From contig JAGXRV010000002.1 of NCBI GenBank assembly GCA_018335695.1, positions 1-52,019 of the forward strand: DNA of 52,019 bases. Direction: 5' to 3'. This DNA comes from Clostridium sp. (GTDB lineage Bacteria > Bacillota > Dethiobacteria > Dethiobacterales > Dethiobacteraceae). Position numbers and translations under genes: made by a program. Under the pieces are notes generated by a model. That model had not been told where the DNA came from and did not search any database. It was given only the letters and a program-made list of their open reading frames with translations. This document shows positions 19,647 through 44,556 of the stretch, in pieces (within the stretch, counting starts at the first letter, position 1; the number at the start of each line of letters is the position of its first letter).

Positions 19647-19680
19647 CTCACCCTAACCCTCTCCCAGAGGGAGAGGGGAT
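19647..19680. repeat. Dispersed repeat family 2, copy 1
   Basis: CCCTCACCCTAACCCTCT followed by a palindromic CCCAGAGGGAGAGGGG. Related copies occur at 30481, 44377 and 44514. Its palindromic half is the seed of the adjacent tandem array. Confidence 0.75.
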
Positions 19681-19774
19681 ATTTGTTTGCTAACCCAGAG
19701 GGAGAGGGGATATTTGTTTGCTAACCCAGAGGGAGAGGGGATATTTGTTTGCTAACCCAGAGGGAGAGGGGATT
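19663..19774. repeat. 31-bp tandem repeat, 3.6 copies
   Basis: The 31-bp unit (start 19663, 19694, 19725, 19756) begins CCCAGAGGGAGAGGGG and ends with GTTTGCTAA; the fourth copy is partial. The copies are identical as far as I can see, so the expansion is recent. Confidence 0.9.
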
Positions 19775-28847: not shown

Positions 28848-29369
28848 CTAAATGTCAGTTAACACTTTGCGAAGCGCTTTTTGAGTATATACTACTACCA
28901 GGCCGGTGAAAAAGCCGGTAGGAATAGCCAAAAGCAATAATAAGGGCAAATAAATTTTGAGCAAATTAAAATTGCCAATAACGAGACTGGCCACCGTAAC
29001 CTGTGCCGTATTGTGCGCTACAGCTCCCATAATGCTTACTGCGACAAGTGATATCTTCCCTCGCTTCCAAAGCGCTATCCCCAGCGCCATCACCAAGGTG
29101 GAAATAACGGCACCGCTAAAACTTAGATAAAAGCCAAAGCCGGGAAAATTTCCCAAAAATATGCCGCCAAGCAGTGAGCGAATCACAGCGATATACATTG
29201 CCGCCGCAAACCCGAAAATCACAAAAGCTAATAAAGTTATCACGTTTGCCAAGCCGAGCTTTGCCCCCGGGACAAGCATGGGAACCGGCAGTAAGGCTTC
29301 CACAGTATGCATAACCAAAGCGAAAGCGACCAATATAGCCAACTGGGTCATTTTTTTTGTACGCAGCAT
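28848..29369 (-). CDS. Gx transporter family membrane protein
   Basis: A 173-residue, about five-helix protein (MTQLAILVAFALVMHTVEALLPVPM..PGAKLGLANVITLLAF, then LGNFPGFGFYLSFSGAVISTLVM). This family (also named heptaprenyl diphosphate synthase component I) resembles ECF substrate-binding subunits and often sits by apbE or rnf genes, so a role in flavin or isoprenoid supply is possible but unproven. It starts directly after apbE. Confidence 0.85.
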   Translation of the reverse strand: MLRTKKMTQLAILVAFALVMHTVEALLPVPMLVPGAKLGLANVITLLAFVIFGFAAAMYIAVIRSLLGGIFLGNFPGFGFYLSFSGAVISTLVMALGIALWKRGKISLVAVSIMGAVAHNTAQVTVASLVIGNFNLLKIYLPLLLLLAIPTGFFTGLVVVYTQKALRKVLTDI

Positions 29370-30473
29370 TTAGAGAATTTCAACCTGCCCTTCCAGTCCG
29401 GAAGAAAGATGTACTTGAGCATCTTCTGTAATAATAATCGCTTCCACCCCTGGTAATGATTCTACCAAAGCCATTCCCCGCTCCAGTCCCATGACAAAGA
29501 CGGCGGTTGAATACGCATCTGCCGTGAAAGCGTCAGGAGCCATAATTGTCACACTGGTCACCCCGCGGGCAGGCATCCCTGTCTGCGGGTCGAGGAGATG
29601 ATGATAACGTTGCCCCTCTGCAGTAAAAAAGCGCTCATAATCACCGGAAGTTACAATAGCCTGATTCCTAATGTCCACTATAGCCACCAGTTCCCGCCGC
29701 TCCCGTGGATGGCGGATACCAATTCGCCAAGGCGAACCGTCAGGCTTTGAGCCAATGGCGCGGATATCGCCACCGGCGTCTACAGTCCCCGAGCTGACAC
29801 CGGCTGCCTGCAACACTTCCACTGCCCTATCCACGATAAAGCCTTTAGCTATACCGCCTAGGTCCAACTTCATCCCTTCATTTTCCAAAAACACTTGCAT
29901 GCCATCCTCAGCTAAGCGCACCCTCCTGTAATCCACAAGCGGCAACACTTTTGCCAAGTCCTGCTCCGAAGGTACGACTGTATTTCCGGTACCAAACCCC
30001 CATAGCTCGAGCAGAGGCGCCACAGTTAAATCGAAAGCGCCGCTTGAAAGCAGACTCACTTCCAGTGCCAAACTAATATTTTTGAATGTGTCGGCAGAAA
30101 CGCTAACCGGCTCTTTGCCGGCCAGATTGTTAATCGCAGTTATCTCAGAATCTGCACGGTGCCTGTCAAGGATGGCCTCCAAACTGACCGCCGCAAAGGA
30201 GGCGTCAGTCAGAGCCTGTTCTCCTGCTTTAACATTTGTAGTATAGATAATCGTTTCCACCACAGTACTCATGAGAAACTCTGTCCGTGCCAGTCTTTTA
30301 GGACCGCCTGGCAGCCCGCCGGATCTGACCATATGAATAATAAAGAGAACAAGCAGAATCTGCGCCACGATAATCGCAATAATCAATCGGCGAGGCCAGC
30401 GTGGAAGTCTCACTCTACATCGCTCCAATATAGTTGTCTGCTTCAGTTTATCACGGAAAAAGTCGGTGCGCAA
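29370..30473 (-). CDS. apbE: ApbE, FAD:protein FMN transferase
   Basis: ApbE moves FMN from FAD onto a Thr of flavoproteins such as RnfG, RnfD and NqrBC. The 367-residue protein has one N-terminal membrane helix (about 29-48) where most have a lipoprotein signal, then the ApbE domain with GKEPVSVSADTFKNI, DLGGIAKGFIVDRAVEVL, AGGDIRAIG and DAFTADAYSTAVFVMG. Start is TTG at 30473, with GAGAGGGG five bases upstream. That ribosome binding site lies inside a dispersed repeat. The likely clients are the Rnf subunits encoded 9-12 kb away. Confidence 0.92.
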   Translation of the reverse strand: MRTDFFRDKLKQTTILERCRVRLPRWPRRLIIAIIVAQILLVLFIIHMVRSGGLPGGPKRLARTEFLMSTVVETIIYTTNVKAGEQALTDASFAAVSLEAILDRHRADSEITAINNLAGKEPVSVSADTFKNISLALEVSLLSSGAFDLTVAPLLELWGFGTGNTVVPSEQDLAKVLPLVDYRRVRLAEDGMQVFLENEGMKLDLGGIAKGFIVDRAVEVLQAAGVSSGTVDAGGDIRAIGSKPDGSPWRIGIRHPRERRELVAIVDIRNQAIVTSGDYERFFTAEGQRYHHLLDPQTGMPARGVTSVTIMAPDAFTADAYSTAVFVMGLERGMALVESLPGVEAIIITEDAQVHLSSGLEGQVEIL

Positions 30474-30480
30474 TAATTCC

Positions 30481-30517
30481 CCTCTCCCACTGGGAGAGGG
30501 TTAGGGTGAGGGCAAGG
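30481..30517. repeat. Dispersed repeat family 2, copy 2
   Basis: CCTCTCCCACTGGGAGAGGGTT with the tail AGGGTGAGGG. Reverse orientation relative to copies at 19647 and 44377. It lies between the apbE start and the antiporter operon and provides the purine-rich ribosome binding site of apbE. Confidence 0.75.
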
Positions 30518-30561
30518 AATATTCTCATCTTTCCGCTGATGCCGTAGGGATGATGGGTCTA

Positions 30562-32871
30562 CTAGTTAAAGCGGGTGTAATAAAGCAAAATAATGAGGAA
30601 GAGCCCCAGTGTCAAAGCTATCAGGAGTGAATCGAAGTTAAGGTTTTTAATATTCCAGTCAGATTGACTGCCTCGCATCCGCTCCCACAGGCTGCGGGAA
30701 TGCTCGCCGGATTGCTCATACGCCTCGCCCAGTGAACTATCAAACTCCGCCGTCTTATCAACAAACTGCCGCGCCATCTGCCCTGATTTTTCATAGGTGT
30801 CGTTTATTGCGCCATCTAATTGTTCTGCTCCGTCCACGATCTTGCGCGCTACGCCGCCAGATTTTTCATAGGCGTCATTTATCACACCGTCAAACTGCTC
30901 TGCTCCATCGGCAATCATGCGCGCCACGCCGCCTGACTTTTCATAGGCATCATTTATCACACCGTCAAATCTTTCTGCCTGTTCCGCTAAATGGCGCGCA
31001 GCCACTCCGCTGCTTTCATAAACTTTATTGACAGAAGAATCAAAAACAGTGATATATTTGCACATCTCCGAAGCAATTTTTCCGGACTTCAAATATGTCC
31101 TATTGATCGCGGAATCAAAGGCTGTGCCAAAATTACAGCAGGTTTTAAAGAAAAAACGAGCCGCCGGCAGATAAAAGCTATACTCCACGCTAAGCCACTC
31201 CGGAGCCTTCCAGTCAAAAATCCGCTTATGGTCTAAAATCAGATACATTACAGCAGCCAAAGCAAAAACCAAAAGCGGCTCCTGCAAGTCATACCACAGG
31301 AAGAAGTTGATTTCCTTTAAAGCTTTGAAACCATAAGCATCAAAAGAGAAGCCGGCTCCAGCCGGAATAACAATGCGGTTGAGGACAAAGTTGGGAAAAA
31401 AGCCGACGGCTAGAATTGCCGCCGAATAGAAGAACAAAATAACCTTGATCAGCGGCGATACCTTAAAATCTAAATTGGAGTGTTCCCTTCGCATATTCCC
31501 CAAAAACAGTCCGGCGAAAAGCTTGGCAAAATAGACCACAGTCATCGCGCTGGCTAAGACATAAAACTTCTCAGCCACAAATAAACTGGTAAACTCCCCG
31601 CCATATTTATAGGCGTAAACAATGGCTCGGTGCATAATTGCCTTAGAGGCATAGCCGCTCCCGCCGGGTACGCCGGCAATGGCAACATAGGAAATCAGAA
31701 AAATAACCGCCAGGAAAGGAAGTTTTTTCATCATTCCCCGGACGCGACTAATATCCACATCCAAAGTGATCAGATAAACTGCTCCCACGACCATAAAGAG
31801 CGACGCCTTAAAGACTGAGTGATTAATTATATGATACATCGCTCCGGAAAAGCCTATCGCCCCTTTTTCAAAGCCGAGAAAAGCGGCCACGCCGATGCAC
31901 ATCAGTATATAGCCCATCTGACTGACACTACTATAGGCCAAGATTCGCTTGGCATTATGCTGCAGGATTGCCAAGGCAGCCCCCATTACCATCGTGAGAA
32001 TCCCCAGCCAAATGATAGCTAGTCCAATATATTTTATTACTTCCGCGCCAGCCGGCACAACCGCCGGATTTGCCGGAGTAAAAATCATGCCCACAATCCG
32101 GATCATCCCATAGGCACCGGCCTTCAACATAGCTGCTGATGAAACAGCGTTTATCGGGGAGGGGCCTACTTCATAGGCTCTCGGCATCCAAATATGCAGC
32201 GGCGCCATCCCCATCTTGATACCAAAGCCCACCATAAACAACGGAATGACAAGCAGTGGGTTAATGCCGGCCGCCAGAATTCTCTCCAGCATGGGTACTA
32301 AATCAAGTGTACCTACGCCTGCAAAGAGGATGAAAATGCCCATCAGGAGCGCCAGTCCTCCAGCCACACCCATATAAATTGTGATGCTACCAGCCCGAAT
32401 AGCTTCCGGTGTTTGACGATGAATAACGAGAACATAGGAAGAGAATGTCATCAGCTCGAAAAAAAGGAAAAGACTAAACAAATCTCCAGCCAAAACTACG
32501 CCCAGACAATGAGCAAGAGTTAAAAGCAGAAACAGATAAAATCTATTCTGGGCATGCTCCTTCCTCATGTAGACGGTGGCATAGATTGTAGCAAAAAGCC
32601 AGCTCAGCGAAAACAGCGCAGCAAAGACGAAGCCGAGAAAGTCCACACGGAAATAAAGTCCGTAGCTCATTAAGTCCGCAAAACGATAGACGACTGTGCC
32701 GGTCTGGACATAAGGATAAAGCGAGAGGACAATGCCGCATGTAGCCAAAGCTACCAGCACCGCCAACAAATTACGCAGTTTCTCCGAGAGATATCCTGCC
32801 AGAAAGACAGGCAACGCACCCAGCCAAGGGACTAAGATGGCCGCCACCGGCAAAAAGGATGTGAAGGTCAT
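30562..32871 (-). CDS. NuoL/MrpA-like antiporter subunit with repetitive C-terminus
   Basis: A 769-residue membrane protein. Residues 1 to about 550 are the proton-conducting antiporter fold of NuoL/MrpA/MbhH (SEKLRNLLAVLVA, YSSVSQMGYILMCIGVAAFLG, KASLFMVVGAVYLITL). The C-terminus is unusual: six repeats of 25 residues (579-728) with the pattern FDxxINxxYEKSGxxAR, then a final hydrophobic helix (about 744-766). NuoL also has a long amphipathic helix followed by a last membrane helix, so the repeats may be an analogous lateral arm. It is the last gene of the operon, starting 5 bp after the second MrpD-like gene. Confidence 0.9.
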   Translation of the reverse strand: MTFTSFLPVAAILVPWLGALPVFLAGYLSEKLRNLLAVLVALATCGIVLSLYPYVQTGTVVYRFADLMSYGLYFRVDFLGFVFAALFSLSWLFATIYATVYMRKEHAQNRFYLFLLLTLAHCLGVVLAGDLFSLFLFFELMTFSSYVLVIHRQTPEAIRAGSITIYMGVAGGLALLMGIFILFAGVGTLDLVPMLERILAAGINPLLVIPLFMVGFGIKMGMAPLHIWMPRAYEVGPSPINAVSSAAMLKAGAYGMIRIVGMIFTPANPAVVPAGAEVIKYIGLAIIWLGILTMVMGAALAILQHNAKRILAYSSVSQMGYILMCIGVAAFLGFEKGAIGFSGAMYHIINHSVFKASLFMVVGAVYLITLDVDISRVRGMMKKLPFLAVIFLISYVAIAGVPGGSGYASKAIMHRAIVYAYKYGGEFTSLFVAEKFYVLASAMTVVYFAKLFAGLFLGNMRREHSNLDFKVSPLIKVILFFYSAAILAVGFFPNFVLNRIVIPAGAGFSFDAYGFKALKEINFFLWYDLQEPLLVFALAAVMYLILDHKRIFDWKAPEWLSVEYSFYLPAARFFFKTCCNFGTAFDSAINRTYLKSGKIASEMCKYITVFDSSVNKVYESSGVAARHLAEQAERFDGVINDAYEKSGGVARMIADGAEQFDGVINDAYEKSGGVARKIVDGAEQLDGAINDTYEKSGQMARQFVDKTAEFDSSLGEAYEQSGEHSRSLWERMRGSQSDWNIKNLNFDSLLIALTLGLFLIILLYYTRFN
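30688..31137 (-). repeat. Six in-frame 75-bp repeats in the antiporter subunit
   Basis: Six consecutive 25-codon units. The third to fifth (AEQFDGVINDAYEKSGG type) are nearly identical, the outer ones are more diverged. Conserved positions are F/L-D, N/L-x-x-x-Y, S-G and A/S-R. Confidence 0.93.
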
Positions 32872-32876
32872 GTTGA

Positions 32877-34370
32877 CTAGAATCCTCCCCTAAGCAAATA
32901 TTCTGCGGCCACCCGGGACAGGTCAAAAGGCAAGTTGGAGGGGAGAAGCCCAAACAGCAGGCAACTAACCGCCAAGATAGCGATCGGTATCAACATTTTA
33001 TAGGGAGCCTCATTAATTTTAATCAATTCATGCTTGTGACCTTCTCCTTGCTCTTCACCAAAAAAAGCAGCGATAATAATAGGCAAGTAATAAAGTCCGT
33101 TTAACAAGCTGCTAATCAAGAGAATCAGCACGTAGAAAGGAACGCCGGCATCCATCGCCCCAAGCGATAGTGTCCACTTACTTAAAAAACCGTTAAATGG
33201 CGGAATACCAATCATCGACAAGGCTGCCAATGTAAAAGCAAACATTGTAAACGGCATCTGGCGGCCAATACCGCCCAAGTCCCTAATGTTCTTCTTGCCT
33301 GTTTTTAAGATAATTGCTCCGGCAGCCAAAAAGAGGGTACTCTTCATAAAAGCGTGGCTGAAAATATGGAAAATGTTCCCCATCAGTGCGCGCTCGTTCA
33401 GGATAGAAATGCCAAGCAAAATGTAGCCCATTTGACCAACACTGGAGTATGCGAGTCGACGCTTCAGGTTTTCCTGAGTGATGGCAACGGCGGAGCCTAA
33501 CAGAATGGTAATGACGGCAACCACGGCAATAATTATCGTCCAACCGGTTGCCTGCATAAATTCTATACCGTAAACATGGAAGATAACCCGCAGCAAACCG
33601 TACGCGCCTGTTTTCAACATGATTCCGGAAAGCAACGCACTGGCAGGAGACGGTGCCACAGGATGGGCGTCCGGCAGCCAGACGTGCAACGGAAACATCC
33701 CGGCTTTCATGCCAAAACCAATCAGGAAAGAGATAAAGGCAAAAAATGCCAAGTTTGACGGTTCACTGATCAGAGGCACAGGATTACTCAACGAGACTGA
33801 ACCGCCTAATTCAAATGTGATGATTATTCCGAAGAAAAGAGCCAATCCGCCGATAATCGTCATAATCAGATATTTGTAGCCGGCACGGAGCGCTTCAATC
33901 GTTTCCTCATGAACGACCAGTACATAGGAAATCAGTGACATCAATTCAAAGAAAACAAAAAGCGTGAAAAGGTCTCCCGCCATAAAAATACCCATACAAC
34001 TGGCCAGAGTAATAATTAATACCGGATAATAACGGTTGCAGCCATGCTCCTTGCACATATAATCAATAGAGTAAATCGCTACAAGCATCCAAATAAACGA
34101 TGAAAGTAAAGCTAAAGAAAAGCTCAGGATATCAACTCTAAAAGAAACAGCCAAATTGGGCAGAATCTGAAACAACTCGAACTCAATAATATTACCGGCC
34201 ATGACTCCGGGATACAGCGCCAGCACGGAAAGAAACGTTACTACAGAGGTGGCTACGGCCAATGCATTACGCATCTTCTCGGATCGCTGCTCCACATAAT
34301 AAATCACTACAGTCATTACCATCGGGAACATCACAATCCAAACAGGTAGAAATGAACCTAAAAGCTGCAT
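32877..34370 (-). CDS. MrpD-like antiporter subunit 2
   Basis: A 497-residue, about 14-helix protein of the NuoM/N-MrpD group. Typical text includes LFELMSLISYVLVVHEETIEALRAGYKYL, MKAGMFPLHVWLPDAHPVAPSPASALLSG and SSVGQMGYILLGISI, which carry the conserved Glu, Lys and His of the proton path. It would form one of three antiporter-type subunits of the complex. It lies 65 bp downstream of the first MrpD-like gene, with a hairpin in the gap. Confidence 0.92.
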   Translation of the reverse strand: MQLLGSFLPVWIVMFPMVMTVVIYYVEQRSEKMRNALAVATSVVTFLSVLALYPGVMAGNIIEFELFQILPNLAVSFRVDILSFSLALLSSFIWMLVAIYSIDYMCKEHGCNRYYPVLIITLASCMGIFMAGDLFTLFVFFELMSLISYVLVVHEETIEALRAGYKYLIMTIIGGLALFFGIIITFELGGSVSLSNPVPLISEPSNLAFFAFISFLIGFGMKAGMFPLHVWLPDAHPVAPSPASALLSGIMLKTGAYGLLRVIFHVYGIEFMQATGWTIIIAVVAVITILLGSAVAITQENLKRRLAYSSVGQMGYILLGISILNERALMGNIFHIFSHAFMKSTLFLAAGAIILKTGKKNIRDLGGIGRQMPFTMFAFTLAALSMIGIPPFNGFLSKWTLSLGAMDAGVPFYVLILLISSLLNGLYYLPIIIAAFFGEEQGEGHKHELIKINEAPYKMLIPIAILAVSCLLFGLLPSNLPFDLSRVAAEYLLRGGF

Positions 34371-34392
34371 TTCCTCATCTCCCCTTCTTTAA

Positions 34393-34436
34393 ATAAAGCT
34401 CTCCCCAAAATGTTCATCGCAACATTAAAGCTTTAT
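34393..34436 (-). other. Hairpin between the two MrpD-like genes
   Basis: ATAAAGCT/AGCTTTAT (8 bp) with an inner AATGTT/AACATT stem. No T-tract follows on the minus strand, so it may stabilise or process the operon mRNA rather than end it. Confidence 0.5.
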
Positions 34437-35923
34437 CATAATCCCAGCAGTAGCTGAGCTGCTCTGTAAACAATCCCCAGAATCAGGGACGGGTAAACAC
34501 CAAATAAAATTACGCCAAAACTTAAAAGCGCGAGCGGCACCAGCATCTGCTTGGGTAGTTTTTCCGGCTCCGGCACAACTTCTTCCGTTTTGGAGAAAAA
34601 AGCATTGACCACGATCGGTAAATAGTAAATCCCATTTAATAAACTGCTGATTAGAATCACTGCCGTAAAAAACGGCCGTCCCACATCAAGAGCGCCTAAA
34701 GCTAAATACCACTTAGAAATAAAACCACTGGTAATCGGAATTCCCACCATGGCAAACGCGCCGATACAGAAAGCAATCGTCGGAATCGGCATAGTGTGTC
34801 CGACTCCTTTCAACTCACTAAGCTTCCGCGCTCCCGTACCGTAGATAAAAGCACCCGCTGCAAGGAAGAGCATCGATTTCATCATGGCATGATTAAAAAT
34901 ATGCAGGATTCCGCCCACCAGCGCTGATTCACTCATCAGCCCCACACCTAAAAAGACGTAACCGATTTGTGCGATGCTCGAGTAAGCAAGCATTTTTTTA
35001 ATGTCGTCCTGCACAATAGCAAACATTGAACCGATAATAATCGCCAAAGTCGACATCCCGAGAATCATGTCCATTACGGGAGCCAACCCGAGCAGCTCTC
35101 GCGGGAAAACAAGATAAAGCAACCTGATCATCGCCACGGCATAAACTTTGATCACTAGGCCGGAAAGCACAGCGGAAGAAGGAGAAGGCGCTGAGGAGTG
35201 GGCATCGGGCAGCCAAACGTGCAACGGAAACAGCGCCGCCTTCACGCCGAGTCCGACAATCAAGAGCCCAAGTGCTACCAGCAGGTTGTTGGGATAAAGA
35301 GCCATAGCTTCCGGCAGAGCCTCTGCCATAAAAGTAAAGTTTAAGTGTCCTGTCACCATATAAAGCATGGCTGCTGCCAACAGAAACGCGCCTGAGCCCA
35401 GTACAGACAGCACTAAATATTTAAACGCCGCTTCGATACAGTCCCTGCTTTCTTTAATTGATATTATCCCGCAGGAAGCTATAGCACAGATTTCGAGAAA
35501 CACAAACATGTTAAAAATATCATTTGTAATCACAATTCCTACCATTGAGGCGATCAAAAGCAGGTAGAGCGTGTAATACCAGCCTATTACTTCAGATTTC
35601 AGCTCATGCAGCAAGTCTTTGCTGCCGTACCAAATTATCAACAGGCCTACGCCTGTAACCGTAAGAGCGGCAAACACTGCTAAATAATCTATACTAAGCT
35701 CAATGCCCCAAGGCGGCGGCCAGTCTCCCATATAATAAGAAAAAGGGCCGGTGCTCATTACCTGGAACACCATTTTCAAAGCGGCCAAAAAAGAAAATAT
35801 AATTGCACCCAAGGTGACCGGCACGCACCACTGTTTGCGCCAGCGAGCAAGCAATGGCATGAGAAAAGCGAAAAAGAGCGGCACTACCACAATTAGCGCA
35901 GGTAAATGTTGACTAAAATTCAC
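34436..35923 (-). CDS. mrpD: MrpD-like antiporter subunit 1
   Basis: A 495-residue NuoN/MrpD-type subunit with about 14 helices. Seen are FLEICAIASCGIISIKESRDCIEAAFKYLVLSVLGSGAFLL, KAALFPLHVWLPDAHSSAPSPSSAVLSGLV and SSIAQIGYVFLGVGL. It overlaps the end of mrpC by 4 bp, the usual mrpC-mrpD order. With the next gene it gives two MrpD-like paralogs side by side, a duplication that has diverged strongly. Confidence 0.93.
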   Translation of the reverse strand: MNFSQHLPALIVVVPLFFAFLMPLLARWRKQWCVPVTLGAIIFSFLAALKMVFQVMSTGPFSYYMGDWPPPWGIELSIDYLAVFAALTVTGVGLLIIWYGSKDLLHELKSEVIGWYYTLYLLLIASMVGIVITNDIFNMFVFLEICAIASCGIISIKESRDCIEAAFKYLVLSVLGSGAFLLAAAMLYMVTGHLNFTFMAEALPEAMALYPNNLLVALGLLIVGLGVKAALFPLHVWLPDAHSSAPSPSSAVLSGLVIKVYAVAMIRLLYLVFPRELLGLAPVMDMILGMSTLAIIIGSMFAIVQDDIKKMLAYSSIAQIGYVFLGVGLMSESALVGGILHIFNHAMMKSMLFLAAGAFIYGTGARKLSELKGVGHTMPIPTIAFCIGAFAMVGIPITSGFISKWYLALGALDVGRPFFTAVILISSLLNGIYYLPIVVNAFFSKTEEVVPEPEKLPKQMLVPLALLSFGVILFGVYPSLILGIVYRAAQLLLGL

Positions 35924-36303
35924 AGGGAGCCGCCTCCCCGTATGCGCATAATTTCTTCCGCGTCAATCGTACCATAATGCTTATATAGTTTTACAATCAG
36001 GCTCAGAGCGTAGGCCGTTACACTGACGGCTACCACGATTCCGGTGAGAATCAGGGCGGAAGGCAGCGGATTGATAAAGGTGTGGTTAACACCAGGCTCA
36101 AGAATCGGCGAGCGGCCGCCGCGAACATAGCCGATAGCCACAAAAAAGAGAAAAATTGCCATATCCATAATGTTCATGCCGATCACCTTTTTTATTAAGT
36201 TGTTGTGCGTCAACATAGTATGGAAGCCAATAATGAAGAGGATAATAGCAAAAAAATAATAGCTGTTGGCATGCAGGCGCAGCACAATTTCAGTGATGGT
36301 CAT
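35920..36303 (-). CDS. mrpC: MrpC, NuoK-like antiporter subunit
   Basis: A 127-residue, three-helix protein related to NuoK (IILFIIGFHTMLTHNNLIKKVIGMNIMDMAIFLFFVAIGYVRGGRSPI). The NHTFINPLPSALILTGIVV segment is typical of MrpC. Start ATG 36303 has GGAGGAGG upstream, and overlaps the end of mrpB by 14 bp. Confidence 0.92.
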   Translation of the reverse strand: MTITEIVLRLHANSYYFFAIILFIIGFHTMLTHNNLIKKVIGMNIMDMAIFLFFVAIGYVRGGRSPILEPGVNHTFINPLPSALILTGIVVAVSVTAYALSLIVKLYKHYGTIDAEEIMRIRGGGSL

Positions 36304-36742
36304 GACTATGGTCCTCCTCCTCAATCAGGCTGTAAAACAGTGTAATCATGGTGCTGGCTACCTTTATTCCCACGCCGAAAGTGATGATGGCAATAGATCC
36401 GCTGCTGAAAAGATTTCCCGGCGTGCCTAAAGGAAAGCCGGCGGCTCTGTTAGCCAGAAAGTTTGCGCCAAGTAAGATAGAGATTAGACCCATCCCGGCA
36501 AAAATCAACGCACCGCTACTTTCCAGTATGGAGGAAACATCGTGGGATAATTTCTTTGACCCTGCCGCCAGATTAAAGGATAAGGCATAAAGAATCATGC
36601 TCGCACCGATAACCGCCCCGCCGGAAAATCCGCCTCCGGGGGAAAGATGCCCGTGTAACACTACATACAGCCCGTAAAGCTGAACAAAGGGCAAAATAAA
36701 GCGGCTCACATAACGGACAATAACATCTTCCAAGTCGTTCAC
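36290..36742 (-). CDS. mrpB: MrpB-like antiporter subunit
   Basis: A 150-residue MnhB-domain protein with four helices (VSRFILPFVQLYGLYVVLHGHLSPGGGFSGGAVIGASMILYAL). The GHxSPGGGFxGG signature is intact. The extreme C-terminus is acidic and His-rich (EEEDHSHDHH), which could bind metal or be a chance tail. It follows the MbhE-like gene by 13 bp. Confidence 0.92.
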   Translation of the reverse strand: MNDLEDVIVRYVSRFILPFVQLYGLYVVLHGHLSPGGGFSGGAVIGASMILYALSFNLAAGSKKLSHDVSSILESSGALIFAGMGLISILLGANFLANRAAGFPLGTPGNLFSSGSIAIITFGVGIKVASTMITLFYSLIEEEDHSHDHH

Positions 36743-36755
36743 CTCGCTTGCAGCT

Positions 36756-37025
36756 TCAATGTGCTTTTAAGTTGGACAATGCTGCGGCAATCGCCACAAA
36801 CAGGACGGTGGCTTCACCTAGTGTGTCAAATGCACGATAGTCTGTAATAATGCTGGCGATAACGTTTAGCGCTCCCGTTTCCTTAAGGCTTTCCTCCACA
36901 TAGCGGCGGGGAACTTCGTTATTTGTCACATTGGCGGGATCGCCGATTGTGGGCATTTCAACCACAGTTGCCACCATCACCACCATAATCACCGCAAGGA
37001 AAAAGAGTATCAGCAATTTTCTCAT
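36756..37025 (-). CDS. MbhE-like subunit
   Basis: An 89-residue protein with an N-terminal helix, a short extracytoplasmic loop (EMPTIGDPANVTNNEVPRRYVEESLKETGALNVIASIITDYRAFDTLGE) and a C-terminal helix. The ITDYRAFDTLGE text is diagnostic for the MbhE domain, which in classical MrpA is fused behind the NuoL part. Start ATG abuts the preceding stop. Confidence 0.9.
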   Translation of the reverse strand: MRKLLILFFLAVIMVVMVATVVEMPTIGDPANVTNNEVPRRYVEESLKETGALNVIASIITDYRAFDTLGEATVLFVAIAAALSNLKAH

Positions 37026-37265
37026 CTATTCTTCCCTCCTTGTCTTGCTGATTGCTGCCACCAGCAGCAGGGTTGTCACACCGGCGCCGATGGCCGCTTC
37101 CGTAATAGCAATATCCGGGGCTGCAAGCAACAACCAAAGAATGGCCATCATCAGACTGTAGGCAGCAAAAATAATAACTGCCGAGAGCATATCCTTTGTT
37201 CTGGCCACAAAAATAGCGCAGAAGACCAAAAAAAATAAAATAAAATATTTCAAAACATCAATCAT
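37026..37265 (-). CDS. MbhD-like (DUF4040) subunit
   Basis: A 79-residue NuoJ-like protein (DMLSAVIIFAAYSLMMAILWLLLAAPDIAITEAAIGAGVTTLLLVAA). APDIAITEAAIGAG is the signature of the MbhD/MrpA C-terminal domain. Start ATG 37265 has GGAGG upstream and overlaps the end of mrpG. Its presence as a separate gene shows a split MrpA, as in Mbh/Mbs systems. Confidence 0.9.
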   Translation of the reverse strand: MIDVLKYFILFFLVFCAIFVARTKDMLSAVIIFAAYSLMMAILWLLLAAPDIAITEAAIGAGVTTLLLVAAISKTRREE

Positions 37266-37602
37266 TGCATTGCACCTCCCCGGTTCTATCCAATTCGTAG
37301 GTGCCTTCACAGACACGTACCTTATTTCGGTAGGAAGCACGTGCAATCACGTGAGCTGCGGTAGGGTTAGTAATCCAGAGAAAGAGTATCATAAAAAAAA
37401 GCTTTACACTGGCATTGGAAAAACCGGCGTACAAAATAAGAGCAAAAAGAATCAAACCCGCTCCCAGCGTATCGCACTTTGTTGTGGCATGCATGCGGGA
37501 ATAAACATCAGGCAGTCTCAAGAGACCTACCACCCCAACAAGAAAGAAAAATAAGCCGGCGGCGAGAAAACTCACAATAAGCACATTAGTTACTACGGTC
37601 AT
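37258..37602 (-). CDS. mrpG: MrpG-like antiporter subunit
   Basis: A 114-residue protein of the PhaG/MnhG family: three helices, LLRLPDVYSRMHATTKCDTLGAGLILFALILY and FLWITNPTAAHVIARAS. Start ATG 37602 follows GGGAGGATT. It lies 11 bp after mrpF. Confidence 0.93.
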   Translation of the reverse strand: MTVVTNVLIVSFLAAGLFFFLVGVVGLLRLPDVYSRMHATTKCDTLGAGLILFALILYAGFSNASVKLFFMILFLWITNPTAAHVIARASYRNKVRVCEGTYELDRTGEVQCND

Positions 37603-37613
37603 GGTAATCCTCC

Positions 37614-37898
37614 CTACTCCAAGGCACCTTTTTCCATATATTTTGCAATCCCAATGGTAGCCACAAAACTAATTAGAGCATAAACCAAGGCCACATCCAA
37701 GAAAAATTCCTGTTTTAACACAAACGCTATCAACGAAATAACTACTACCGTCTTAGTGCCGATAATATTAATAGCCACCACCCGGTCAGCCTCGCTTGGC
37801 CCCACCACGGCGCGGTAAAGACAAAAAAAAGTGGCAATGACCAGAATCACGCTAACACCGATAAAAATATTCTCAAGAAAGGTAAACTCAAAGCCCAT
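37614..37898 (-). CDS. mrpF: MrpF-like antiporter subunit
   Basis: A 94-residue, three-helix protein (YRAVVGPSEADRVVAINIIGTKTVVVISLIAFVLKQEFFLDVALVYALISFVATIGIAKY). The GPSxADRVVAIN pattern is diagnostic. Start ATG 37898 has GGAGG upstream and overlaps the end of mrpE by 11 bp. Confidence 0.93.
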   Translation of the reverse strand: MGFEFTFLENIFIGVSVILVIATFFCLYRAVVGPSEADRVVAINIIGTKTVVVISLIAFVLKQEFFLDVALVYALISFVATIGIAKYMEKGALE

Positions 37899-38400
37899 TT
37901 TGTTCGGCCTCCTCGATTTCAAGCAACCTGTCAATCATATCCCACTCAGCCACGTCCTCCGCATTGCCCCTGGTTATCGCATGGACCACATAGATATCGC
38001 CTTCCATTTCCACCGTTAAGGTTCCCGGAGTCAATGTGATAGAATTCGCTAAAATTACCCTGTTGAGCGGTTTTTTCAGCCTTGCCCTATATTTGATAAA
38101 TCCCGGAGAGATATCCATTTTTGGCTTTAAAACAATTTTAGCCACATCCCAGTTCGACTTAAAAATGGCTACCACCAGCACATATAAATAGACGACCCAT
38201 TTCCAGAGCGTTTTTTTATGGTACAGCGGCCGCTCAGCCGGTTTCAACAATAAATCATGATTAAAAGCGGCGATACCGTACGAGCAGATGGCGCCTACCA
38301 GTAAATGCTGCCAATGCAACCGTCCGGTAATTAAAATCCAAAAAAGAAACAAGACGCCTGCCGTCACCCAGAAGGTGGCACCTTTTGCTATTTTTTTCAT
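37888..38400 (-). CDS. mrpE: MrpE-like antiporter subunit
   Basis: A 170-residue membrane protein of the MnhE family: hydrophobic N-terminal half, then a cytoplasmic domain with PKMDISPGFIKYRARLKKPLNRVILANSITLTPGTLTVEMEGD, the family text, and VHAITRGNAEDV. First of the ten antiporter genes. The ATG at 38400 has GGGAGGAGGGG upstream and starts 3 bp after the moaC stop. Confidence 0.93.
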   Translation of the reverse strand: MKKIAKGATFWVTAGVLFLFWILITGRLHWQHLLVGAICSYGIAAFNHDLLLKPAERPLYHKKTLWKWVVYLYVLVVAIFKSNWDVAKIVLKPKMDISPGFIKYRARLKKPLNRVILANSITLTPGTLTVEMEGDIYVVHAITRGNAEDVAEWDMIDRLLEIEEAEQNGL

Positions 38401-38403
38401 TGC

Positions 38404-38898
38404 CTACCCCTCCTCCCTGCCCTCAGTTCGACGGTAATGACCAGATTTGCCTCCTTGCTTTTCCATCAAGCAGACGTGAGTAATTTCCATCTCCTTGTCA
38501 ACGGCTTTGCACATATCATAGATTGTCAGCGCAGCCACAGTAACGGCTGTAAGCGCCTCCATTTCCACGCCCGTTTTGCCGGTGGTTCCAACCGAAGCCC
38601 TTATTTTCACAAGCTGCTTGACAGTGTCCAGCGTAAAGGAGATATCGACCGCCGTGATGAAAAGCGGGTGACACATTGGTATCAAGCGGGATGTCTCTTT
38701 TGCTGCCAACACTCCGGCTACCTGCGCCACGGCGAGCACGTCGCCCTTGGCAATGCCACCGGAAGCAATTAACTCCAGCGTTTCCGGTTTCATGCGCACA
38801 AAGCCTTGCGCCACAGCCAGCCTGCGCGTGTCATCCTTTGCAGAGACATCGACCATCTTGGCCCGTCCCTGCTCGTTAATGTGTGTCAGTCTATTCAT
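38404..38898 (-). CDS. moaC: MoaC, cyclic pyranopterin monophosphate synthase
   Basis: MoaC, with MoaA, makes the first stable pterin of the molybdenum cofactor. Seen are [15 protein letters not shown] and [28 protein letters not shown], which hold the active-site His, Lys and Asp. Length of 164 is normal with ATG 38898 (GGGGGC upstream). No other moa gene is nearby; it heads the antiporter operon with 3 bp spacing, so it is probably cotranscribed. A functional link is not obvious. Confidence 0.95.
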
Positions 38899-38959
38899 TT
38901 GCGCCCCCAGCAAGGAATCTCTCGACAAGTCAACCTGAAAGTCAATTTACAACAAGCTA

Positions 38960-38988
38960 AGTTTACTCCTGTCTCCCGGGAATGTCAA
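38960..38988 (-). promoter_or_regulatory. Promoter for moaC-mrp operon
   Basis: Minus strand TTGACA, a 17-base spacer and TAAACT, directly after the rnfB terminator and about 55 bases before the moaC start. Close to the sigma-A consensus. Confidence 0.75.
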
Positions 38989-38990
38989 CG

Positions 38991-39025
38991 AAAAAAGCTG
39001 GCGCAGAAGGTAAATCTTCCGCGCC
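38991..39025 (-). terminator. Intrinsic terminator after rnfB
   Basis: Minus strand GGCGCGGAAG-atttac-CTTCTGCGCC (10 bp with one G-T pair) followed by AGCTTTTTT. It separates the rnf operon from moaC-mrp. Confidence 0.9.
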
Positions 39026-39030
39026 GCAGT

Positions 39031-39819
39031 TTAAACAATAGTAGTACGCGGACAAGCCTCGACACATTCACCGCAGTTAGTGCAAATAAAACTGTCAATG
39101 ATGGCTAAGTTGTTTTCCATACGAATAGCCTCCACTGGACATGCTTTCACACACAGGTTGCAGGCGATACAACCGCGCTCGCATACTGTCCGCACATGTT
39201 TGCCTTTGTCACGTGACTTGCAGCGCACATGATGCAGCCCGTTGGCATTCACCATTTCAATTACCTGCCGCGGGCAGATGTTCTTGCATTTACCGCAACT
39301 GATACAAGCAGTCGCATCAATAACAGGCAGGCCGTTGCTCCCCATGGCAATTGCTTGCACAGGGCAGGCACGGACACAATTGCCAAGACCCACACACCCA
39401 AAGCCGCAAGCCAGCGGCCCGCCGCCAAACATCAGAGCCGCTTTACAGTCAGGCGCGCCGTCATAAATATGCTTAATTTTAGCGGTTGTCCCGTCGCCCA
39501 GGCAAACAAGTTGCGCCACAAGACGCGCTTCCGCCGACGGCGCTTCTGCTCCAAGAATTTCGGCGATTTTACTCGCCGTCTTAGCGCCCCCGGGGGTACA
39601 GCCGCTAACCGGCGCTTTTCCCGCCACCACTTCTTCCGCAAACTGAGCACAGCCGGCATAGCCGCAGGCGCCGCAATTGGCACCTAAAAGTGCTTCCTGA
39701 ACCATTTCCACCTTAGGATCGACTTCAACGGCAAACTTTTGCGCGGCAAACGCCAGCGCACTGCCAAACAATAATCCCAGCCCTCCCAGGCTAAGAATTG
39801 CCGGTACAATTAAATTCAT
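39031..39819 (-). CDS. rnfB: RnfB, iron-sulfur subunit of Rnf complex
   Basis: RnfB takes electrons from reduced ferredoxin. The 262-residue product has an N-terminal membrane helix, a Fe-S domain with C49, C52, C57 and C74, then several [4Fe-4S] ferredoxin motifs (CGFGCVGLGNCVRACP, CISCGKCKNICP, CIACNLCVKACP, CTNCGECVEACP). The start at 39819 is preferred because AGGGGG lies 8 bases upstream; ATG 39825 is too close to it. Last gene of rnfCDGEAB, followed by a terminator. Confidence 0.95.
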   Translation of the reverse strand: MNLIVPAILSLGGLGLLFGSALAFAAQKFAVEVDPKVEMVQEALLGANCGACGYAGCAQFAEEVVAGKAPVSGCTPGGAKTASKIAEILGAEAPSAEARLVAQLVCLGDGTTAKIKHIYDGAPDCKAALMFGGGPLACGFGCVGLGNCVRACPVQAIAMGSNGLPVIDATACISCGKCKNICPRQVIEMVNANGLHHVRCKSRDKGKHVRTVCERGCIACNLCVKACPVEAIRMENNLAIIDSFICTNCGECVEACPRTTIV

Positions 39820-39831
39820 CGTCATTTCCCC

Positions 39832-40407
39832 CTACATCATGCCTTTGAATCCCCCGAAAGCCAAGGACAGGATTCCGGCAATAATCATGGCGATAGATAC
39901 TCCTTGAAAGTGTTTCGGCACAAACACAAATTCCAAGCGCTCACGAATTCCGGCCATAATTACCAAGGCCAAGGTGAAACCTACGGCTGCAGCCGTGCCG
40001 AAGACGACCGCTTCAAACAAATTATAGCCTAACTGGATATTCAAAATCGCTACGCCGAGCACAGCACAATTTGTGGTAATCAACGGCAAAAAAATACCGA
40101 GTGACTGATAAAGAGTGGGACTCGCTTTGCGGATCACAAGCTCCACAAACTGAACCAGGGAGGCGATAACTAAGATAAACACGATGGTGCGCAGGTACTC
40201 CAGTTGATTTGGCACCAAAACATAATACTCAAGCAGCCAAGTCACAAACGAAGCCAAACCCATAACGAAAGTAACAGCCATGCCCATCCCTAAAGAAGTT
40301 TCCACTTTTTTGGAAACACCCATAAACGGACAGATACCTAAGAAGCGGGACAACACAAAATTATTAATAAAAATGGCCCCGAAGATAATCGCAAAAATCT
40401 CGCCCAC
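39832..40407 (-). CDS. rnfA: RnfA, membrane subunit of Rnf complex
   Basis: A 191-residue, six-helix protein of the RnfA/NqrE group ([53 protein letters not shown]). RnfA and RnfE pair in the membrane and hold a [2Fe-2S] cluster with conserved Cys such as those in LGICPF and TTNCAV. It lies 13 bp after rnfE. Confidence 0.95.
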
Positions 40408-40420
40408 AATCTAGCCTCCT

Positions 40421-41020
40421 TTACTCCAGTTTGTATTTCTTGGAGAGCATATTCACCAGCGCCATCAATAGCCCAAGCGCAAGGAAAGCACCCGGCGGAG
40501 AAGCAAAGACTTTGAAAGGCTCATAGGCGGCTCCCAAAAGATTGACGTTAAAAATGGTACCTGCACCCAGCAATTCACGCACAGCACCAAGCAACGTCAG
40601 GGAAAGGGCAAATCCCAAACCGATGCCCAAGCCATCGGCAAGAGAGTGAACCACGGGAGATTTAGAAGCAAAAGCTTCCGCACGCCCCAGAATAACGCAG
40701 TTTACCACAATCAGCGGCACAAAAATTCCCAGTTGGGCATGAAGCGCAGGCATATAGGCATTTAGAAGCATATCGACCATGGTGACAAACGTGGCAATGA
40801 TAATGATAAAACTGGGAATGCGGATTTTTGCCGGGATAAAATTGCGCATCAGAGAAATTGCCAAATTGGAGCAAACGAGTACCGCCGAGGTGGCAACACC
40901 CATCCCAAGGCCAAACTCAGCTTTGGTTGTAACTGCCAAAGTGGGACACAAGCCGAGTACCAGCCGGAAGACGGCATTTTCTTTAATAATACCTTTCGAG
41001 AACTCACTTATCACACTCAT
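40421..41020 (-). CDS. rnfE: RnfE, membrane subunit of Rnf complex
   Basis: A 199-residue, six-helix protein (FSKGIIKENAVFRLVLGLCPTLAVTTKAEFGLGMGVAT, PLIVVNCVILGRAEAFASK). The LGLCP and VVNC cysteines mirror those of RnfA and should share the intramembrane Fe-S cluster. It follows rnfG by 17 bp. Confidence 0.95.
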   Translation of the reverse strand: MSVISEFSKGIIKENAVFRLVLGLCPTLAVTTKAEFGLGMGVATSAVLVCSNLAISLMRNFIPAKIRIPSFIIIIATFVTMVDMLLNAYMPALHAQLGIFVPLIVVNCVILGRAEAFASKSPVVHSLADGLGIGLGFALSLTLLGAVRELLGAGTIFNVNLLGAAYEPFKVFASPPGAFLALGLLMALVNMLSKKYKLE

Positions 41021-41037
41021 TTTCTCACACCTCCCAC

Positions 41038-41859
41038 CTATTGCTCCAGTGCGTTCTGCACGGCCTTGATAATAGCGTCGCTGGATATTGTCGCTCCTGA
41101 AACCGCATCAACTTGTATTGTCTGTTTAGCGATTATTTCCTCAATCACCTTTTCTGCGTTTGCCCAGCGGTCAGCCGTTTCCTGCTGCGCGGTTACATTA
41201 ATTGCCGTGATTTTCCCACCGGCCACAGTCACTTCCAGAGTGATATCTCCTTTAAAACCTTTAGCCGTACCTGTATAAGTGCCATCAGCCACTCCTTCCA
41301 GGCTAAACGCCGGAGCCGTGTTGCCCTCGGCGCCGGCTACTCCTCCGTCGCTGAAGCGCTGCCAGATCTCGTTATACTCTCTTTCCACCCCGGTCTCCAT
41401 AGCTCTGACGGAGACCGTGGCGCCGGAAATCGCGTCCACAGTAAAGGTGTCGCCGGCTTTTTTGCCAAGAAACTGTTCAGTAAACCAAGGCTCTTTAATT
41501 TTATCGCCCAAACCAGGTGTTTCCGTCTGAGCAAACACCGTCAGACCTACAATTTCTCCTGCAGCGTTAATCCCCAGGTTAAATCTAATCGGACCGCCGT
41601 AACCCTCTGTCTGCCCTTCTGCCAGCACGCCGACAAATTTATTTTCAGCGTCAAAGGCGACTGTAGCAGTGCGGCCATCGACCGTTCTCTCCTCAAAATT
41701 TGTCAGCGTTGGGAATAATTCCGCAAGTTGCGCCACCTTTTCTTGATGAAGACGTTCCGCAATAACGACAGACGTCACCTGGTTGGTGAAAGCCAAAGCG
41801 ACGGCTGCCACTACGCAGAAAATCATCAGAATAACTCCCATACGGATCATTTCTTTCAT
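41038..41859 (-). CDS. rnfG: RnfG with two FMN-binding domains
   Basis: RnfG carries covalent FMN on the outer face of the membrane. The 273-residue protein has an N-terminal helix (about 7-25), a normal RnfG FMN domain with DAISGATVS (S145-T148 in SGAT) and, after a linker, a second FMN-binding-like domain (about 190-272, GTYTGTAKGFKGDITLEVTVAGGKI) with DAVSGATIS (SGAT 254-257). Typical RnfG proteins are about 200 residues and have only one. Either Thr could be flavinylated by ApbE. It overlaps rnfD by one base. Confidence 0.92.
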   Translation of the reverse strand: MKEMIRMGVILMIFCVVAAVALAFTNQVTSVVIAERLHQEKVAQLAELFPTLTNFEERTVDGRTATVAFDAENKFVGVLAEGQTEGYGGPIRFNLGINAAGEIVGLTVFAQTETPGLGDKIKEPWFTEQFLGKKAGDTFTVDAISGATVSVRAMETGVEREYNEIWQRFSDGGVAGAEGNTAPAFSLEGVADGTYTGTAKGFKGDITLEVTVAGGKITAINVTAQQETADRWANAEKVIEEIIAKQTIQVDAVSGATISSDAIIKAVQNALEQ

Positions 41860-42785
41860 TACTTCGCCACCTCCCCGTATTTCCTCGGCAAGGTCTTATT
41901 GTCAATTAAAGGTGTCAGCGCGTTCATCATCAGAATGGCAAACATAACCCCTTCAGGAAACGCGCCAAAGATGCGAATCAGCATCGTCAACAGACCGCAG
42001 CCAATCCCGAAAATCAACTGACCTTTGGCAGTGACCGGCGAAGTCACCATATCGGTAGCCATAAAAAGCGCGCCAAGCATTACGCCCCCGGCCAATACAT
42101 GGAAAAGGCCGGCTGAAAACATCGCCATAGCACCGCCGTAACCACCAAAAAAGAACCCCATCACAAAAACAGTACCGATAAAGCCGCCGGGAATACGCCA
42201 GGTAATATGACCTTTGTAGAATAGCCAGCCGGCTCCAAGAATCAAAGCAAAGGCGCTGGTTTCACCTATACAGCCGGGAACGGCACCCACAAATAAATTG
42301 ATAAAACTAAAAGCCCTCTGATCTAATGCGAGCGGTGTGGCGGCGGTTGCCAAGTCTACAGGGCGAACCCAAGTAGTCATGTGAGTCGCCCAAGATGCCA
42401 TCAAAATGGCTCGAGCCACGAGCGCGGGGTTAAAAATGTTGTTGCCGATCCCGCCAAAAACCTGCTTGCCAATAACTATGGCGGTAATACCGCCGATAAC
42501 CGCAAGCCACCACGGCACGGTGGGAGGCAGAACCATGGCCAAAAGCAGCCCCGCCACTGCCGCACTGCCGTCACCAAAAATGTTTTTCTGACGCAAAATT
42601 ATAGCTTCAGTTACCATGGCGGAAACAGTAGTTAGCAGCATTGTTATAAGCGCTGGCGCGCCAAAGAAAATTACGCCGGCCAAAGCGGCTGGAAATAAGG
42701 CCACAAGCACGTCAATCATCACACTTTGAACCGATTCTGTCGTCTTTAAATGCGGCGATGAAGAAACGACTAATTTTCTATCCAT
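41859..42785 (-). CDS. rnfD: RnfD, flavin membrane subunit of Rnf complex
   Basis: A 308-residue, multi-helix protein of the RnfD/NqrB family (SPHLKTTESVQSVMIDVLVALFPA, FGGIGNNIFNPALVARAILMASW). The GETSAFALILGAGWLFYKG stretch should hold the Thr that carries covalent FMN. It follows rnfC by 27 bp. Confidence 0.95.
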   Translation of the reverse strand: MDRKLVVSSSPHLKTTESVQSVMIDVLVALFPAALAGVIFFGAPALITMLLTTVSAMVTEAIILRQKNIFGDGSAAVAGLLLAMVLPPTVPWWLAVIGGITAIVIGKQVFGGIGNNIFNPALVARAILMASWATHMTTWVRPVDLATAATPLALDQRAFSFINLFVGAVPGCIGETSAFALILGAGWLFYKGHITWRIPGGFIGTVFVMGFFFGGYGGAMAMFSAGLFHVLAGGVMLGALFMATDMVTSPVTAKGQLIFGIGCGLLTMLIRIFGAFPEGVMFAILMMNALTPLIDNKTLPRKYGEVAK

Positions 42786-42812
42786 CTAGCTATCCCTCCT
42801 TTACCTTTGCGC

Positions 42813-44156
42813 TTACTTTTTCGCTGCGGCGGCAGCACGCCTAGCCGCAATATCCCCCTTGGACATCCGAATCCACTGCACCAGCGGACGTTTGGAAGGG
42901 CAGATATATGTGCAGCAGCCACATTCAATGCAATCCATGGCGTTATATGCTTCCGCTTTATCATACATGCCTTGCTCGACAGAAGAGCCGATAAACAGGG
43001 GCATAATGCTGACAGGGCAGACATCTACACATTTTGCGCACTTAATACACTGGCGAATGTCATAAATCTGTACTTCCTGTTCGGTTAAGCAAAGAATACC
43101 GGACGTTCCTTTGGTGACAGGCTGGTTCTCCGGTCCCGGCTGCGAAAAGCCCATCATTGGGCCGCCAAGAACCATTTTGCGGATATTAGACTTAAACCCG
43201 CCGCATTGCTCAATCACTTCCTCTAAAGGCGTACCTACCCGCACCAGCATGTTTTTTGGCTCCATAATGCCTGAACCGGTAATTGTCACGTTGCGTTCAA
43301 TCAAGGGCTTGCCGAAACGCACCATGTCTGCAATGGCAATACATGTGCCGGGGTTTTGCACCACACAGCCAACCATGGAAGGCAACCCTCCGGAGGGCAC
43401 TTCGCGATTGGTAAACACTTTAATCAACTGTTTTTCCGCGCCCTGCGGGTACTTCGTATGAAGCGCATGAACTTCGATATCAGGGAAATTGGCTGCAGCT
43501 TTTTTAAGCGCTTCCACCGCATCCGGCTTATTATCCTCAATACCAATCATCCCTTTGGGCGCATTGACAACTTTCATAACTATCTGCAGACCGACGATAA
43601 TATCATCAGGACGCTCGAGCATAGCACGATGATCAGCGGTAAGATAAGGTTCGCACTCGGCTGCGTTAACCAGCACATAATCGATGGCTTGACCCGGTGG
43701 CGGAGAGACTTTTACATGGGTAGGAAATGTGGCTCCTCCCATACCGACAATACCGCCTTCTCGAATCAATTTTTTCAGCTCGTCTACCCCCAACTGCTGC
43801 CAGTTGGGATTTGGCGACACGTCTTCATGCCAAGTATCCTGAAAGTCATTCTCAATGTAAATTGCTTGCACCGGCCTGCCCAACGCCGAATTGCACATTT
43901 CGATCTTTATCACTTTCCCGGAAACACTGGAATGAACCGGGGCTGAAACAAAACCTTTGCTGTCACCAACCTTTTGCCCCATCTTTACCTCATCCCCCAC
44001 AGCCACAAGCGGCTCACAAGGTGCTCCGATATGCTGTGACAGTGGAATAATAGCCACCGCAGGGGGCTTGGCGGGAACGACAGGCTTCTTCTCGGTCGCA
44101 CTTTTAAAGTCGCCGGGATGAACGCCTCCCTTAAACGTCTTAAAGCTCATCTGCAC
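42813..44156 (-). CDS. rnfC: RnfC, NADH-interacting subunit of Rnf complex
   Basis: RnfC binds NAD+/NADH and FMN and carries two [4Fe-4S] clusters. Seen in 447 residues are FKGGVHPGDFK at the start, GMGGATFPTHVKVSPP and YVLVNAAECEPYLTADHRAML (flavin/NAD part), and CIKCAKCVDVCPVSIMP plus CIECGCCTYICPSKRPLV near 370-425. First gene of the operon. Start may be GTG 44156 (GGGGTG upstream) or ATG 44150; the two differ by two residues. Confidence 0.95.
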   Translation of the reverse strand: MQMSFKTFKGGVHPGDFKSATEKKPVVPAKPPAVAIIPLSQHIGAPCEPLVAVGDEVKMGQKVGDSKGFVSAPVHSSVSGKVIKIEMCNSALGRPVQAIYIENDFQDTWHEDVSPNPNWQQLGVDELKKLIREGGIVGMGGATFPTHVKVSPPPGQAIDYVLVNAAECEPYLTADHRAMLERPDDIIVGLQIVMKVVNAPKGMIGIEDNKPDAVEALKKAAANFPDIEVHALHTKYPQGAEKQLIKVFTNREVPSGGLPSMVGCVVQNPGTCIAIADMVRFGKPLIERNVTITGSGIMEPKNMLVRVGTPLEEVIEQCGGFKSNIRKMVLGGPMMGFSQPGPENQPVTKGTSGILCLTEQEVQIYDIRQCIKCAKCVDVCPVSIMPLFIGSSVEQGMYDKAEAYNAMDCIECGCCTYICPSKRPLVQWIRMSKGDIAARRAAAAAKK

Positions 44157-44376: not shown

Positions 44377-44411
44377 GCCCCTCACCCTACCCTCTCCCAG
44401 AGGGAGAGGGT
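44377..44411. repeat. Dispersed repeat family 2, copy 3
   Basis: CCCTCACCCTACCCTCT plus the palindromic CCCAGAGGGAGAGGGT. Same orientation as the copy at 19647. Two nearby fragments (CCTCACCCTAGCCCTCTTCC at 44420 and 44485) look like degenerate halves. Confidence 0.75.
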
Positions 44412-44513: not shown

Positions 44514-44556
44514 CCCTCTCCCTCTGGGAGAGGGTGGAGCGCAGCGAGGGTGAGGG
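44514..44556. repeat. Dispersed repeat family 2, copy 4
   Basis: CCCTCTCCCTCTGGGAGAGGGT followed by a GGAGCGCAGCGAGGGTGAGGG tail; opposite orientation to copy 3, about 100 bp away, so the two could pair. Confidence 0.7.

Follow-up and report, generated by a model that had tools for sequence, protein, structure and literature searches.

The locus presented here raises the question of what role six tandem repeats play in an antiporter-like subunit, in which they are located between the antiporter fold and the last membrane helix. The gene in question, which we refer to as D3, is encoded on the minus strand of a 52,019-nucleotide stretch of Clostridium sp. DNA (contig JAGXRV010000002.1, hereafter "the window"); the contig is from a Dethiobacteria genome, whose closest named relatives carry the label CROMO and are Dethiobacter MAGs, sediment MAGs making up many of the others. 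The coordinates of D3, of its parts and of the genes that surround it are listed in Table 1.

Table 1. Window coordinates of D3, of its structural parts and repeat units, and of the genes of the Rnf-Mrp locus.
Feature	Position	Strand	Match or evidence
Rnf complex genes, order C-D-G-E-A-B (44156 down to 39031)	39031..44156	-	PF13375, PF03116, PF04205, PF02508 twice, PF04060 with Fer4
MrpE	37888..38400	-	PF01899
MrpF	37614..37934	-	PF04066
MrpG	37258..37602	-	PF03334
MbhD-like subunit	37026..37346	-	PF13244
MbhE-like subunit	36756..37025	-	PF20501
MrpB (MnhB domain)	36290..36742	-	PF04039
MrpC (NuoK-like)	35920..36324	-	PF00420
D1, MrpD-like antiporter subunit, 495 aa, without array	34436..35923	-	
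D2, MrpD-like antiporter subunit, 497 aa, without array	32877..34370	-	
D3, antiporter-like subunit (NuoL/MrpA/MbsH' type), 769 aa, with array and terminal helix	30562..32871	-	PF00361, E 6e-50
D3 antiporter core, residues 1-511 (TM1-14)	31339..32871	-	
D3 TM15, residues 526-548	31228..31296	-	hydrophobic helix, AlphaFold pLDDT about 75-91; aligned with MrpA
Array unit 1 FDSAINRTYLKSGKIASEMCKYITV, residues 585-609	31045..31119	-	structural alignment: on the start of the MrpA lateral helix
Array unit 2 FDSSVNKVYESSGVAARHLAEQAER	30970..31044	-	
Array unit 3 FDGVINDAYEKSGGVARMIADGAEQ	30895..30969	-	
Array unit 4 FDGVINDAYEKSGGVARKIVDGAEQ	30820..30894	-	
Array unit 5 LDGAINDTYEKSGQMARQFVDKTAE	30745..30819	-	
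Array unit 6 FDSSLGEAYEQSGEHSRSLWERMRG	30670..30744	-	
D3 WNIKNLNFD motif and terminal membrane helix TM16, residues 739-768	30568..30657	-	kept through relatives
ApbE family protein (flavin transferase), directly 3' of D3	29370..30473	-	PF02424

That D3 is an antiporter subunit of the NuoL/MrpA/MbsH' type, as the sequence-only reading had proposed, is supported by sequence matches and by structural modelling. D3 has the Proton_antipo_M core fold (PF00361), its top match in a sequence search of the PDB is MbhH (6cfw_H, E 6e-53), followed by MrpA, MrpD and MbsH', and its AlphaFold model, with a core pLDDT mostly of 80-95, matches MrpA/NuoL-type entries over residues 5-609 with Z of 40-43; residues 5-609 superpose on residues 1-613 of MrpA from B. 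pseudofirmus (7qru_A, Z 43.4). The ion-path residues E139, K219, K250, H351, K355 and K410 are present, and the glutamate of TM5 (E139) and the lysines of TM7, TM8 and TM12 (K219, K250 and K410) are found in nearly all relatives, the exceptions being L029 (E139V) and L039/L086 (K250N); their retention rules out a degenerate, dead core. The core is followed by a C-terminal extension composed of TM15, the lateral helix (HL) and TM16, with model helices at residues 526-548 and 745-768, the latter being of low confidence and not aligned to MrpA; since the model aligns with MrpA over residues 5-609, residues 562-609, which include the first repeat unit, are placed on the MrpA HL. The array is located, as had also been proposed, between the antiporter fold and the last membrane helix, i.e. 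in the lateral helix region before TM16. The VIA-align rows span only the core of D3 and the start of the HL, and other folds missing from them carry no information on the array.

The locus reads RnfC-D-G-E-A-B, MoaC, MrpE, MrpF, MrpG, MbhD, MbhE, MrpB, MrpC, D1, D2, D3 and ApbE; 3' of ApbE there is a transporter of the Hpre_diP_synt_I/ECF-like type (Pfam), followed by four genes that we take, from their translations, to be Maf, RadC, MreB and MreC, and whose order is conserved in relatives. Along several Bacillota classes, the order Rnf-(MoaC)-Mrp-(ApbE)-transporter-Maf-RadC-MreB is conserved (window 28848-44156; L072-L086 and L105-L119). There is no MrpA gene in the window locus, and MbhD and MbhE stand for the C-terminal part of MrpA. 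Group 3 Mrp antiporters are defined by the absence of mrpA, one or more mrpD genes, separate MbhD and MbhE, and the presence of B, C, E, F and G (PMC8415708); because MrpA is missing and MbhD and MbhE are separate genes, the module of the window is, judged by its Pfam matches, a group 3 Mrp antiporter, with several MrpD-like subunits and all the other genes of the definition. It differs from the published group in having three antiporter subunits, Rnf directly upstream and an array on the last subunit.

Apart from the genes, the window has four copies of the palindrome CTCTCCCNNTGGGAGAGGG (19657-19677, 30480-30500, 44390-44410 and 44514-44534; chance expectation 0), one of them between D3 and ApbE; the palindrome looks like a dispersed repeat element. 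Two non-coding tandem repeats are also present, one of 23 bp in 8.4 copies at the contig end (51826-52019) and one of 31 bp in 3.6 copies that are 100% identical (19663-19773).

The array of D3 is made up of six adjoining units, each exactly 25 residues long, at residues 585-734 (window 31119..30670, minus strand). The self-identity of the protein at a lag of 25 is 0.48, against a maximum of 0.18 in 10,000 residue shuffles over lags 5-59, and Tandem Repeats Finder reports the same array with a period of 75 bp. The number and the length of the units had been read correctly from the letters, with the array placed six residues too early (579-728). Three near-identical middle units had also been described, of which only units 3 and 4 are so alike (23/25 amino acids and 64/75 nucleotides identical), unit 5 matching them at 13-14 of 25 residues. 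A chance or low-complexity origin is ruled out by the shuffles together with the selection described below.

The repeat is confined to D3, none having been found elsewhere in the genome of the window. A Pfam search of the C-terminal 188 residues, with E up to 5, has returned no match above the cut-off, which rules out a known repeat family, and the PDB sequence matches of the array come from designed helical repeats and from the coiled coils of chemoreceptors, a weak profile similarity that we read as general similarity between helices. The PARCEL/DUF285 repeats (PMC2996958) are amphipathic 25-residue tandem repeats of bacteria, as the units of D3 are predicted to be, but they are a different family by profile, as there is no DUF285 match in the same search.

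The comparison of 125 units from relatives has revealed a consensus with Asp at position 2 (98%), Tyr at position 9 (97%) and Gly at position 13 (86%), percentages that are upper bounds, since several of these positions are fixed in the motif pattern used to collect the units; positions 1, 5 and 19 are occupied by large hydrophobic residues. Among whole numbers of turns, the hydrophobic moment and the conservation moment of these units are both highest at seven turns per 25 residues (p = 0.00045 for the hydrophobic moment, against the shuffled hydrophobic profile), and proline accounts for 2 of their 3,125 residues. The pattern fits one continuous amphipathic helix that would present the same face in each unit; of the two shapes that had been suggested from the letters, a long surface helix or a series of hairpins with about seven turns per unit, the former agrees with the periodicity, while hairpins appear less likely, given where the moments peak and how rare proline is. 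Structure prediction covers monomers, i.e. AlphaFold models of D3 and of a five-unit relative, L018 (equal-length relatives), in which the array is drawn as long helices with pLDDT <50 and is not placed by the models. The linkers of D3 in the family of the window measure mostly 132, 157, 182 or 207 residues (one has 206).

The array is under purifying selection: its synonymous divergence (about 0.6-0.8) is far above its amino-acid divergence, and between the window and the sister species G003 it has a dS of 0.77, a dN of 0.061 and a dN/dS of 0.08, with 0.05 for the core of D3. The sequence-only reading had taken the likeness of the middle units as a sign of recent expansion; for the gene of the window this does not hold, because units 3 and 4 (dS 0.94, dN 0.035) are at least as diverged as D3 orthologues between sister species (dS 0.65-0.85), and are thus old DNA. 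By these rates, it is selection on the protein that has kept the two units nearly identical, rather than a duplication of recent date. A recent duplication is found in the relative G001, which has seven units, units 3 and 4 being identical at 72 of 75 nucleotides.

The module was found in 32 of 398 genomes sampled over the phylum. Throughout Dethiobacteria the array has 3-7 recognised units (6, 6 and 7 in close relatives), with a spacing of almost always exactly 25 residues, and in other Bacillota it is shorter and more degenerate, mostly at the same Rnf-Mrp-ApbE locus. Exactly one array is present in 60 of the 75 tabulated loci (55 distinct gene places, five being counted twice in the table), and two arrays in none; in every array-bearing locus, the array is carried by the last antiporter gene, and where D3 lies beside D3', a second antiporter lineage, only the last gene has the array and D3 is without one. 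Rnf is directly upstream of the array-bearing Mrp genes in the window and in most loci with upstream sequence, across Bacillota classes. A strict tie to Rnf does not quite hold: full Rnf is missing from the fetched region of L079, of the f24 loci (which have an RnfG-like gene only) and of the orphan genes L076 and L077. The last two (L076 7227-9608 in G012, L077 3-2159 in G005) are stand-alone, array-bearing D3 paralogues that are sisters and have neither Mrp nor Rnf neighbours.

Some of the same genomes have a second Mrp-type operon (L087-L094, order B-C-D1-E-F-G-MbhD-MbhE), with up to seven antiporter-like genes in L088 and L089. The D3-type subunits of these second operons have no array, and Rnf genes were not recognised in the fetched stretch; since these subunits lack it, the array does not appear to be needed for every Mrp complex.

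The relation between the array and the partner subunits is seen where the locus has been reduced. In the family of the window the locus has shrunk to Rnf-D2-D3 independently at least twice, and G068 (L119) has another such reduction. Full Mrp loci retain the array, and so do the loci of G010, G011, G017 and G009, which have shrunk to Rnf, D2 and D3 and retain 6-7 units. In G008 and G013, where Rnf and D3 stand alone, D3 is without the array and without TM16, and neither MrpE nor a further antiporter match was found in the two genomes. Both genes form one clade of the core tree, nested within array-bearing genes, and the loss is therefore a single event. The lone antiporter gene of these loci (L082 in G008, L083 in G013) lies directly 3' of RnfB, all other Mrp genes being gone, and in L083 the glutamate of TM5 is changed to valine.

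The array is also found on a different core. D3' forms a separate clade (support 100/100) and bears the array as well; the core of the D3' gene L038 is 55-57% identical to the D3' of other families and 31-34% to the D3 of its own family, whereas over the last 60 residues L038 shares 71-90% identity with the D3 of its own family and 40-42% with other D3'. From these pairwise identities, which are the main basis of the claim, the C-terminal module goes with the operon lineage, not with the core, and has been shuffled onto the D3' core; the tree of the anchor region (84 columns) gives moderate support (86/88) for joining D3 and D3' of family f1. The length of the array does not follow the number of antiporters, as two-antiporter loci in the family of the window have 6-7 units and three-antiporter loci have 3-7; hence, the extra units do not act as a simple ruler, and a model in which HL length is proportional to antiporter number is unsupported by the unit counts.

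Similar extensions are known from related subunits. The N-terminal part of MrpA (7qru_A, 6z16_A, 7d3u_A) and NuoL share with D3 the fold, the ion-path residues and an HL followed by TM16, but MrpA continues with TM17-21, which in the window locus correspond to the separate MbhD and MbhE genes; we know of no repeat array in MrpA or NuoL. MbhH, the best PDB sequence match, has 510 residues and is without the long C-terminal extension. MbsH' of the Pyrococcus furiosus MBS (6u8y_X) is like D3 an antiporter core with TM15, a long HL and TM16, and like D3 the last antiporter of a split-MrpA (group 3) module; its HL is a single, non-repeated helix, whereas the HL region of D3 is expanded by 25-residue repeats, and the locus of D3, unlike MBS, is joined to Rnf and has no hydrogenase-like arm. 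In MBS, the HL and TM16 of MbsH' "holds MbsH and MbsH' together", and MBH, with a single antiporter, has a shorter HL, complex I, with three, a longer one (PMC7684303).

On this analogy, and on the sequence and model data above, we consider it reasonably probable that the array of D3 is a repeat-expanded HL/TM16 brace by which D3 is held to its neighbours. D3 would be the end subunit of a group 3 Mrp antiporter module that is encoded directly behind the Rnf genes, with its HL lengthened between TM15 and TM16 through in-frame duplications of a 75-bp stretch encoding a seven-turn amphipathic unit. By analogy with the HL of Mrp, MBS and complex I, the array would run on the cytoplasmic side: TM15 and the first part of the HL would start on D3, and TM16, with the WNIKNLNFD motif, would re-enter the membrane at a neighbour, most likely D2, so that D3 would be held in place within the complex by the HL/TM16 module. 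The repeats would lengthen this brace, its length being free to vary in whole units. We favour this reading because the position of the array, its predicted helicity, its loss together with the partners, its portability and its single occurrence per locus fit together. The position, the register, the periodicity, the selection, the loss with the partners and the shuffling between cores are observed; that the module touches the neighbours, and what its added length does, we infer. The suggestion from the letters that the repeats clamp the other antiporter subunits gains a comparative fit in the loss from D3-only loci, the module shuffling and the one array per locus. Against a brace stand the low pLDDT of the unplaced array in both monomer models, the failure of its length to track antiporter number, the single evolutionary event behind the loss, and the D3-type subunits of second operons that do without it; moreover, as a straight helix (1.5 Å per residue), six units would measure about 225 Å, which probably exceeds what a three-antiporter module needs. 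The extra length may be taken up by folding back or by covering the cytoplasmic side, or it may bring the helix to Rnf or to a second protomer.

The last of these options leads to an over-long HL by which the Mrp module would be tethered to Rnf or to another Mrp protomer. The gene order in the window and in most array loci with an upstream region, across Bacillota classes, the retention of Rnf, D2 and the array in reduced loci, the excess length, and the contacts of the MbsH' HL across the MBS dimer (PMC7684303) all agree with such a tether; we hold it to be rather unlikely, as L079, the f24 loci and the two orphans have the array without full Rnf in the fetched region, and the D3-only loci have retained Rnf and are without the array. 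That an HL extending past its own antiporters also couples the Mrp module to Rnf or to a second protomer, with an Rnf-Mrp supercomplex joining ferredoxin oxidation and Na+/H+ exchange, seems unlikely. A cytoplasmic helical bundle or coiled coil, acting as a docking or regulatory surface with no role in bracing the antiporters, would have to account for the location of the array exactly in the HL between TM15 and TM16 and for its loss with TM16 in the lineage without partner antiporters; we judge it improbable, even with a 25/7 periodicity that is compatible with a coiled coil, the weak profile similarity to such helices noted above, and the freely varying length. A spacer arising from replication slippage, neutral or disordered, would suit the low pLDDT, the differing copy numbers of close relatives (6, 6, 7) and the 72/75 identity in G001, but is very improbable: a dN/dS of 0.08 at a dS of about 0.8, the conservation of positions D2, Y9 and G13 in 86-98% of the pattern-gathered units (upper bounds), the nearly strict register, the near absence of proline, and the array staying with its operon lineage through the exchange of the core all speak against it.

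The fold and the topology of D3 are already known from MrpA, NuoL and MbsH'; of a repeat-expanded HL in antiporters we have found no description in the open-licence literature. For complex I and its relatives, it has been debated if the lateral helix serves as a coupling element or as a static brace. The HL described here is modular, i.e. it is built in 25-residue steps, is transferable between antiporter cores and is lost in one lineage that has no partner antiporters left, and therefore the idea of a brace can be tested directly with length variants in one gene. The conserved Rnf-Mrp locus across Bacillota is, in addition, a candidate for joint action of the two complexes.
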